Of a DNA stretch of 64,000 nt, positions 3,618 to 9,811 are shown in pieces. Under the pieces are notes generated by a model, which saw only the letters and a list, made by a program, of their open reading frames with translations, was not told where the DNA came from and made no database searches. Made by a program: the position numbers and the translations under genes. This DNA comes from Loktanella sp. (GTDB lineage Bacteria; Pseudomonadota; Alphaproteobacteria; Rhodobacterales; Rhodobacteraceae), in assembly GCA_017390475.1 (NCBI GenBank), contig JAFPBO010000051.1, positions 186,001 through 250,000 on the forward strand. The letters run 5' to 3'. How positions within the stretch are numbered: the stretch's first letter is position 1; the number at the start of each line of letters is the position of its first letter.

Positions 3618-4358
3618 TCATGCGGGATAACCGTCATGCACAACATCATCCAGCGCCCGCCCCTTGGCCTTAATTTCTTTCTGATTCCGGCCTTCCCACT
3701 GCTTAAAGAGGAACGGCACCCCAGCCCCCGCGCATTGATCGCGGATACTGCGAAACCAGTCTGGATCGGCGGGGCGATAATGCGTCCCGTTTTCACCGCC
3801 AGTGATAACCCAATGCAGATTTTGGATATGCGCAGACAGATCGACGGGTCCAACAAGAGGTTCCATTGACAAAAAACGGATGCGCGCCGGAACCTTGGTC
3901 AGATCATCAATGCGGTTAGCGGCGGCTTGGTTTTCGACTGTCGCGCCCAACCATACATTTGCATATCCGTTGCCCCAATCATCCGGCAGCATCTTTGCAA
4001 TGTTGGAAGGCCGCTTGGTCAGCAGCAACCAATCAAGGTTAGGCGTCTGACGGATCAGCGCCCATAATTCACGCCGCCATGTTGGTTCGATTGTCCGGTG
4101 GTTGTCGAATACATCGGCTAATGACGCGCAGAATACGCGCGGACGTTCGCCAGATATAGCAGCCTGTTTGTTCCACTTTATCGGGTTGCCCCATGTTTTT
4201 GTCCGCGTCCGTGGCGCGTGTGGCCCCCAGCGCTCGCCATTGAACCGTTTGTCCCACGCCTCCGCATAGCAATGGTCGCAGGCGGGGCTAACCTTTGTGC
4301 ATCCGATCCAAGGATTGAACGTGTGTGTCGTCCATTCAATGCCGCTATTCTCTGCCAT
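3618..4358 (-). CDS. Phage Gp37/Gp68 family protein (DUF5131)
   Basis: A 246-residue member of the phage Gp37/Gp68 (DUF5131) family. The N-terminus carries the family signature ending in CTKVSPACDHCYAE, with cysteines 20, 27 and 30 (C-x6-C-x2-C). This resembles a radical-SAM iron-sulfur loop, although the spacing is not the classical C-x3-C-x2-C. Further family blocks are WGPHAPRTRTKTW, VFCASLADVFDNH, LTKRPSNIAKMLP and the GGENGTHYRP region. AGGAG lies eight bases upstream of the ATG. In phages these genes sit among accessory genes; a role in nucleotide or RNA modification has been suspected but is unproven. It is the gene closest to the island's junction with ctrA. Confidence 0.85.
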   Translation of the reverse strand: MAENSGIEWTTHTFNPWIGCTKVSPACDHCYAEAWDKRFNGERWGPHAPRTRTKTWGNPIKWNKQAAISGERPRVFCASLADVFDNHRTIEPTWRRELWALIRQTPNLDWLLLTKRPSNIAKMLPDDWGNGYANVWLGATVENQAAANRIDDLTKVPARIRFLSMEPLVGPVDLSAHIQNLHWVITGGENGTHYRPADPDWFRSIRDQCAGAGVPFLFKQWEGRNQKEIKAKGRALDDVVHDGYPA

Positions 4359-4724: not shown

Positions 4725-8995
<4,271 letters not shown>

Positions 8996-9012
8996 AAAAT
9001 TTCCCCCTCGAT

Positions 9013-9027
9013 GTTCCTAAAAAGTTC
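9013..9027 (+). promoter_or_regulatory. SOS (LexA) box, GTTC-N7-GTTC
   Basis: The sequence is GTTC, seven bases (CTAAAAA), then GTTC: an exact match to the direct-repeat LexA operator of Rhodobacter and other alphaproteobacteria. It lies 18 bases after the recG stop and 61 bases before the start of a small membrane-protein gene. This suggests DNA-damage control of that gene rather than of recG. Confidence 0.7.
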
Positions 9028-9087
9028 TTTACAGGTCATGTTTGATATGAGAACAAAGTAGCAACAGAACATTAAGGGAACATGAAC

Positions 9088-9210
9088 ATGGCGAAAGAAA
9101 TTACAACCATTCTGATCCGTTCGCGTCATACGCTGGTCGGGGACGCCTTGGGCGTGATCGCCTTGGTGGTTCTGTTATATGCCGGATTGGCCTTGCCCGG
9201 GCTGATCTGA
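9088..9210 (+). CDS. 40-residue single-pass membrane protein, probably SOS-induced
   Basis: A small gene of 40 codons plus stop. AAGGGA lies eight bases before ATG 9088; another ATG at 9082 is too close to that site. The protein has a basic N-terminus (MAKEITTILIRSRH), then one transmembrane helix from about residue 17 (LVGDALGVIALVVLLYAG) and a short tail LALPGLI. It is preceded by a perfect LexA box and followed by an intrinsic terminator, giving a complete one-gene transcription unit. Small SOS-induced inner-membrane proteins such as Caulobacter SidA block cell division; a similar role is an inference from size, topology and regulation, since no sequence match was possible here. Confidence 0.7.
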   Translation: MAKEITTILIRSRHTLVGDALGVIALVVLLYAGLALPGLI

Positions 9211-9329
9211 CCTGCCGCGCGGCTGTCTGATCCGCGCCATTGCCTGTCCCACCTTGCAATGCACCTACCGCCCGCTGTCACGGGGTTTTGCCTCTCCCTG
9301 ATGGTTGGATCAGATCGCTGCCAAACTCG

Positions 9330-9366
9330 CCGCCGCCATCCTGCCCAGGATGCGCGGCGGTTTTTT
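9330..9366 (+). terminator. Intrinsic terminator after the SOS small-protein gene
   Basis: A 12-pair stem (CCGCCGC + CATCC pairing with GGATG + GCGGCGG, one bulged C), a six-base loop and six T residues on the plus strand. It ends rightward transcripts and its T run touches the stop codon of the convergent IscU-like gene. Confidence 0.8.
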
Positions 9367-9811
9367 ATGTGCGGGCCTTGGCGGTTTGCAGCGCGTCCAA
9401 TGTCGCCTCGAACGCCAGCATGATGGATGCATGGCGGTTCTTGTAATCGCGCGCCGGTTCCAGCACTTCCAGCCCGTCGAACGGGGCGGCAGGCACTGGG
9501 CCACCCGATTTCAACATGGCGTAAAGCGCATCGCGCCCTTGCTGGACCTGATCCTCTGTCAACCCGACGACAGCGTCACCGATCACGGCAGCGGCGGCTT
9601 GTCCCAAGGCGCAGGCTTTCACATCCTGCCCGTAATCCGTGATCACGCCGTTATCGACCACCACATCCACCGTGACATTGGACCCGCAAAGTGGCGCACG
9701 TTTCTTTGCCGTCGCACTGGGCTGCGCCAGCCGCGCGGTGCGCGGCATATTGGCGGCCAGCGCCAGAATACGCGTCGAATAAAGCTTGATCATATCGGTT
9801 TCGGCTGACAT
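9365..9811 (-). CDS. IscU/NifU-like iron-sulfur scaffold protein, third cysteine absent
   Basis: A 148-residue member of the IscU/NifU N-terminal family, which holds nascent iron-sulfur clusters. Two of the three usual cluster cysteines are present, C42 in APLCGSN and C67 in VKACALGQ. At the third site the family's His-Cys-Ser reads H127-A128-S129, so the cysteine is replaced by alanine. The assembly function may therefore be altered or partial. AAAGGG lies eight bases before the ATG. It is transcribed away from hisI and is not near an isc or suf operon in this window. Confidence 0.85.

Follow-up and report, generated by a model that had tools for sequence, protein, structure and literature searches.

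A predicted SOS-controlled membrane microprotein encoded directly after recG in most sampled Rhodobacteraceae

Directly 3' of recG in the 64-kb stretch of DNA analysed here (the window), the region 9013-9210 carries a LexA-type promoter followed by an open reading frame (ORF) of 40 codons at 9088-9210 (Table 1). The recG stop at 8995 lies 17 bases 5' of the first LexA box. The original prediction had named a perfect LexA box (GTTC-N7-GTTC), a 40-codon gene with a ribosome site and a single transmembrane helix, and each of these was recovered: the box is exact at 9013-9027 and is separated from the ATG at 9088 by 60 bases; AAGGGA stands at 9074-9079; the ORF at 9088-9210 has 40 codons plus a stop; and the encoded sequence has one hydrophobic stretch. 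That prediction had not listed two further sites: at 9067-9081 the minus strand carries another exact box, which overlaps the ribosome site, and 9051-9065 matches the box with one mismatch.

Table 1. Features around the 3' end of recG, with positions counted in the window
Feature	Position	Strand	Evidence
recG, ATP-dependent DNA helicase	6905..8995	+	NCBIfam NF008164, 1094.9 bits vs cut-off 785
LexA operator 1, GTTCCTAAAAAGTTC, just 5' of the -35-like element	9013..9027	+	exact match
Putative -35-like element TTTACA	9028..9033	+	TTTAC 98-100%, last A 69%, in 188 same-length promoters
TG-A-GAACAA, 17 bases past TTTACA; putative, possibly an extended -10 merged with a LexA half-site	9048..9056	+	
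Degenerate LexA operator 2, GAAC-N7-CAAC on the + strand	9051..9065	-	one mismatch
LexA operator 3, exact GTTC-N7-GTTC, overlapping the ribosome site; not family-wide	9067..9081	-	exact match
Ribosome binding site AAGGGA	9074..9079	+	sequence
Predicted 40-residue single-helix membrane protein MAKEITTILIRSRHTLVGDALGVIALVVLLYAGLALPGLI, with stop	9088..9210	+	conservation, codon pattern, hydrophobicity
Terminator-like hairpin then T6, common to the end of the convergent gene	~9329..9366	+	fold
Convergent SufU/NifU-like Fe-S scaffold gene, kept as downstream neighbour	9365..9811	-	TIGR01994 49 bits, cut-off 92.5

Starting at another in-frame ATG, at 9082, would lengthen the protein by two residues; the start at 9088 is the one that all 30 genus loci read have in common. 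Counted from this second Met, every protein in the 30 loci (the window included) is exactly 40 residues long, and 89-114 bases separate each gene from a preceding frame with a RecG-like end. Among the 30 genus sequences the variability at codon positions 1, 2 and 3 was 0.185, 0.049 and 0.317, and the median dN/dS over 395 unsaturated pairs was 0.14. Judged by this codon pattern, the ORF is a real gene whose protein is under purifying selection.

The window contains only two exact GTTC-N7-GTTC sites, which face each other at 9013-9027 (plus strand) and 9067-9081 (minus strand). The chance expectation for an exact box in 64 kb is 1.4, two or more were found in 39 of 100 shuffles, and the genome as a whole has 112 sites against 125 for a reversed-pattern control. 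Because the motif is enriched neither in the window nor in the genome, the number of boxes was rejected as evidence for LexA. What does exceed chance is the arrangement, since both exact sites flank one promoter and this arrangement is conserved in relatives; in all 30 genus loci read, an exact GTTC-N7-GTTC stands at the same place or one register upstream. The same box occurs in this genome about 28 bases before the start of lexA (the single match over the cut-off) and about 50 bases before recA. It was also found about 63 bases before uvrA and about 30 bases before an imuA-like gene, two sites taken from 20 AT-rich ones among the matches listed (112 genome-wide). The imuA-like gene scores 30.4 bits, under the curated cut-off of 150, and the next gene matches the impB/mucB/samB polymerase family. 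The boxes before uvrA and the imuA-imuB-like pair, which lie on C18 and C19 of genome G000 (L149, 1480-1494, and L150, 1528-1542), trace out part of this genome's core SOS regulon. With an exact alphaproteobacterial box at the promoter, kept in relatives, and the same box before lexA and recA, LexA (SOS) control of the 40-residue gene is well supported; we infer LexA binding and, by analogy with SidA and YneA (see below), induction.

The anatomy of the promoter was read from 188 distinct promoters of the same length, out of 201. TG precedes GAACAA in 99-100% of them and the CAAC that closes the second operator is present in 172, neither being required by the search patterns; a further upstream GTTC at -10, which the first search pattern did not require and the window promoter does not have, occurs in 154. 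The conservation of TTTAC is partly built in, because one search pattern required it. An exact site in the region of operator 3 is present in 20 of the 188. GAACAA is a poor -10 hexamer rather than a recognisable consensus and a sigma-70 scan reported no promoter at this site; hence, the promoter elements are given in Table 1 as putative.

A search for the box and the small gene after recG in relatives had been proposed as a check on the original prediction, and both turned out to be conserved in the genus and family samples. When 60 relatives were searched, all 36 sampled genus genomes matched the protein, its own genome included, and of the 24 relatives from other families a single one matched, weakly (E 0.75, inside a 258-residue frame). 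A 12-row profile matched 334 of 394 family genomes at E up to 0.1, some of them weakly, and a 33-row profile, at E up to 0.01, matched 94 of 101 genomes of an order-level draw, covering 54 of 54 genera. Among 385 genomes drawn at class level, seven matched the family profile; five of these belong to the family of the window, and the other two matches are weak and partial, inside frames of 495 and 353 residues. Searched without the protein, the promoter pattern GTTC-N7-GTTCTT-NN-C-N15-20-GAACAA was present in 213 of 295 family genomes, at most once in each, and a reversed control pattern gave no matches in the same 295 genomes. A stricter form was found in at least 117 stretches of a named-genome collection, and the matches listed come from genera that we take to be Rhodobacteraceae or from unplaced alphaproteobacterial or proteobacterial bins. 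In a pool of 228 loci, drawn partly by protein and partly by promoter and in some cases from the same genome, the strict promoter is present in 216, and in 213 of these a short one-helix ORF follows it.

Two genera, represented by nine genomes, are informative about the relation between promoter and protein. The pattern that located their promoters was a looser one, with chance matches among its results, and all nine promoters fit the strict pattern; in seven of these genomes the 33-row profile has no protein match, and the other two match it weakly. The promoter can thus persist beyond recognisable similarity of the protein, which favours a reading in which the frame is incidental and the unit is a small RNA or a conserved promoter only. 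However, a diverged one-helix ORF of 31-43 residues still follows the promoter in all nine genomes, and the third codon positions vary most and the second least, at a dN/dS of about 0.14, which makes a unit without a protein very improbable.

Comparison of the protein and promoter match lists left 42 of the 295 genomes with neither a protein match nor the strict promoter, 40 protein-negative genomes being inferred from their absence among the listed matches. The promoter at fixed spacing, with up to 3 mismatches allowed, did not occur in the 42 genomes. The end of recG was found in 33 of them, and 29 loci were read. A small one-helix ORF follows recG in 22 of the 29, accompanied by an exact box in 17 and by one-mismatch boxes only in five (L283, L289, L293, L297 and L310); such one-mismatch boxes also arise by chance, as L286 and L306 have one each and no ORF. 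L288 has a box at the contig end, and six loci (L286, L292, L294, L305, L306 and L308) have neither an ORF nor an exact box. The chance of meeting a small one-helix ORF was 4.2% (29 of 694) after other long frames with family members masked, an earlier unmasked control (53 of 729 frame ends) having been contaminated by real family members, and 7.8% at 4000 random window positions. All 22 ORFs score at least 3.6 bits against the family profile, compared with 2.4 bits for the best of 68 control ORFs; those at L299, L307, L309 and L310 are under 8 bits and are the least certain of the 22. Hence, of the 295 genomes, protein matches (weak ones among them) or the promoter show the unit in 253 and the recG route shows it in another 22; one has the box only, while six are without the unit after recG and 13 are unreadable. 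On these counts the unit is nearly family-wide, present in most sampled Rhodobacteraceae and not universal.

A LexA match is present in 37 of the 42 genomes, one of these being partial and below the cut-off, and in all 20 unit-positive genomes checked alongside. All three LexA-less genomes in which the recG end could be read (G067, G226 and G254) are without the unit, compared with 3 of 26 genomes with LexA; here L288 is counted as unit-positive, and two further LexA-less genomes have no recG locus to read. The unit is thus missing after recG in some genomes that do have LexA, and it is not universal. The one-sided Fisher p for absence of the unit versus absence of LexA is 0.0055, from a test chosen after seeing the data; since, in addition, G067 is an incomplete bin (82%), we take the co-absence as supporting and not decisive. 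The three genomes without a detectable LexA gene and without the unit, whose loci are L286, L292 and L306, may be lineages in which the SOS response was lost, or their assemblies may be incomplete.

The surroundings of the unit are also kept. Among 214 promoter loci with at least 300 bases upstream, recG lies on the same strand and within 400 bases upstream in 207; of the other seven, three have no recG match and four have recG upstream, farther off or only partly aligned, at 545 to 963 bases from the aligned end. The SufU/NifU-like neighbour was found in 176 of 216 promoter loci, in convergent orientation in 175; the gene in the window scores under the curated SufU cut-off. The unit had also been credited with its own terminator. 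The fold does contain a hairpin with T6, but two pattern scans reported no terminator at ~9329-9366. Because the hairpin lies about 120 bases past the ORF stop and overlaps the end of the convergent gene, a terminator belonging to the unit is only plausible. Terminators were found at 34 of 206 loci in relatives versus 4 of 206 random stretches, counts that are too weak for the claim of a family-wide terminator.

In the window protein the most hydrophobic 19 residues are residues 22-40, with a Kyte-Doolittle mean of 2.4. Asp19 is invariant in the 196 aligned proteins, and Gly22 (98%), Leu34 and Pro37 (both 97%), Leu26 (93%) and Leu36 (90%) are highly conserved, with Gly33 at 58%. The periodicity of conservation peaks at 100 degrees per residue (permutation p 0.009 for residues 11-37 and 0.018 for residues 15-37), over residues 19-36 the 180-degree moment of 0.392 is slightly larger than the 100-degree moment of 0.374 (p 0.035), and residues 4-18 give no helical conservation signal (p 0.25). 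The helical signal in the alignment is thus modest, and it is not uniform: Leu36 lies off the proposed conserved face in spite of its 90%, and Gly33 lies on the face at 58%. Ahead of the most hydrophobic 19 residues the proteins have a mean of 2.7 Lys or Arg, and in 196 of 196 rows neither residue occurs behind them, from which the N-terminus is predicted to lie inside; the absence after the stretch is partly trivial, because in the window protein the stretch reaches the C-terminus. In one genus (L134-L138), the protein is 31 residues long in four of the five genomes read, with most of the N-terminal basic segment missing and the Asp, Gly and Leu-Pro positions kept.

The window protein has no Pfam or NCBIfam match up to E 10, and among 33 family members the best Pfam E is 0.024, in one member. 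A weak match (E 0.015) was found between the protein at 9088-9207 and phrog_9768, a phage family of 42 positions with unknown function, which a second member of the alignment also matches; the matches to PHROG are weak only, and identity with a known family was rejected. Titles and abstract openings of the openly licensed papers searched gave no description of the 40-residue gene. A study of LexA in Dinoroseobacter predicts LexA sites at several named genes, and in the text covered the present gene is not named and recG is absent from the main text (PMC6473078). We regard the protein as a new family within the known kind of small SOS membrane proteins.

Within that kind, the first comparison is with SidA of Caulobacter crescentus, described as a 29-residue inner-membrane SOS division inhibitor that acts on FtsW (PMC4211646). 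SidA is a tiny inner-membrane protein of a LexA-repressed GTTC-N7-GTTC regulon (PMC4211646, PMC12700426); the present protein is likewise alphaproteobacterial and is predicted from sequence to be a tiny single-helix inner-membrane protein under LexA. SidA has 29 residues versus about 40 here, the two being compared by description. About 97% of Caulobacter SOS promoters are reported to carry a single LexA box (PMC12700426), whereas here operators flank the promoter, which is unusual by that measure. Of the idea of a roseobacter SidA-like SOS effector, SOS control and a tiny membrane protein are well supported by sequence comparison: relatives keep both box and frame, the box stands before lexA, recA, uvrA and the imuA-like gene as well, and none of the three readable LexA-less relatives has the unit. 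By analogy, a functional counterpart of SidA in roseobacters is plausible.

A second group of small DNA-damage-induced membrane proteins comprises YneA, SosA and ChiZ. The helix of YneA from Bacillus subtilis, which is induced by DNA damage, is reported to bind TM7 of FtsW, and AlphaFold 3 models put SidA, SosA and ChiZ on FtsW, not at high confidence (PMC13396833); the contact of helix and FtsW is hence shown for YneA and modelled for SosA and ChiZ (PMC13396833). In contrast to YneA and ChiZ, which have a LysM domain, and SosA, which has an extended helix, the present protein would have at most a few residues outside. The helix of YneA alone is described as localising without blocking division (PMC13396833), so the tiny outside tail counts against a division block. 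The protein could instead be an SOS-induced regulator of another membrane complex, for example a signalling kinase, a protease, a DNA-uptake or gene-transfer-agent release apparatus, or a respiratory complex. The conserved side and the nearly fixed length fit any helix-helix partner, and predicted LexA sites in Dinoroseobacter are reported to reach gene-transfer-agent, recombination and motility genes (PMC6473078). However, no genomic link to such systems was seen, the neighbours being recG and the SufU-like gene, and division arrest is the known role of several comparable SOS membrane proteins; we consider such a regulator doubtful.

TisB of Escherichia coli is an SOS-controlled single-helix peptide and a type I toxin with an antisense RNA. 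DinQ from the same species is described in the same terms (PMC3567139). A membrane-depolarising peptide of this kind, driving dormancy after damage, would agree with the similar size, the one helix and a LexA-type promoter with operators on both sides, as fits a gene that must stay off. For the present gene Rfam gave no sign of an antisense RNA, neither strand of 8990-9400 having a match at E up to 1; a novel antisense RNA would escape this search. In addition, the promoter occurs at most once per genome and nearly always after recG, Asp19 is invariant, and one consensus protein query had no match in 72,556 plasmid or 50,697 phage records, all of which speak against a toxin and leave it, in our judgement, unlikely. 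A mobile origin and an RNA element were rejected by the same plasmid, phage and Rfam searches.

We return to a division inhibitor. The gene, the promoter, their conservation and the LexA box before core SOS genes are results of the computation; from them we infer, with about even confidence, that the microprotein is induced in the SOS response, sits in the inner membrane and delays division by docking on a membrane complex, for which FtsW/FtsI/FtsN is the most likely candidate. LexA bound at the operators flanking the promoter on either side would block RNA polymerase and hold the gene silent. RecA on single-stranded DNA would trigger self-cleavage of LexA, a short transcript would be made, and the 40-residue protein would insert into the inner membrane as one helix, with its positively charged N-terminus on the inside and no more than a few residues exposed outside. 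An enzyme of this length is not to be expected, and a specific membrane contact would leave such a pattern, a conserved helix side with an invariant Asp at the inner edge. The conserved side (Asp19, Gly22, Leu26, Leu30, Gly33 and Pro37) probably packs on a fixed partner helix. This partner would most likely belong to the septal wall machine FtsW/FtsI/FtsN, so that division would wait for repair. FtsW is the first candidate because SidA and YneA both act on it; the sequence carries no direct sign of FtsW binding.

More tentatively, and with less than even confidence, we propose that this new microprotein family, with its invariant Asp at the membrane edge, is a checkpoint protein of roseobacters, Rhodobacter and Paracoccus, one that blocks a membrane machine by a contact unlike that of SidA or YneA and whose promoter is closed by LexA from both sides. 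In the openly licensed papers searched we found no description of how these abundant marine and phototrophic bacteria halt division during DNA damage. A gene with a fixed LexA promoter, present once per genome in most sampled genera, makes the proposal readily testable. In addition, the two-sided LexA promoter of the locus is unusually well conserved, and the locus suggests one small gene model for the annotation of the family.
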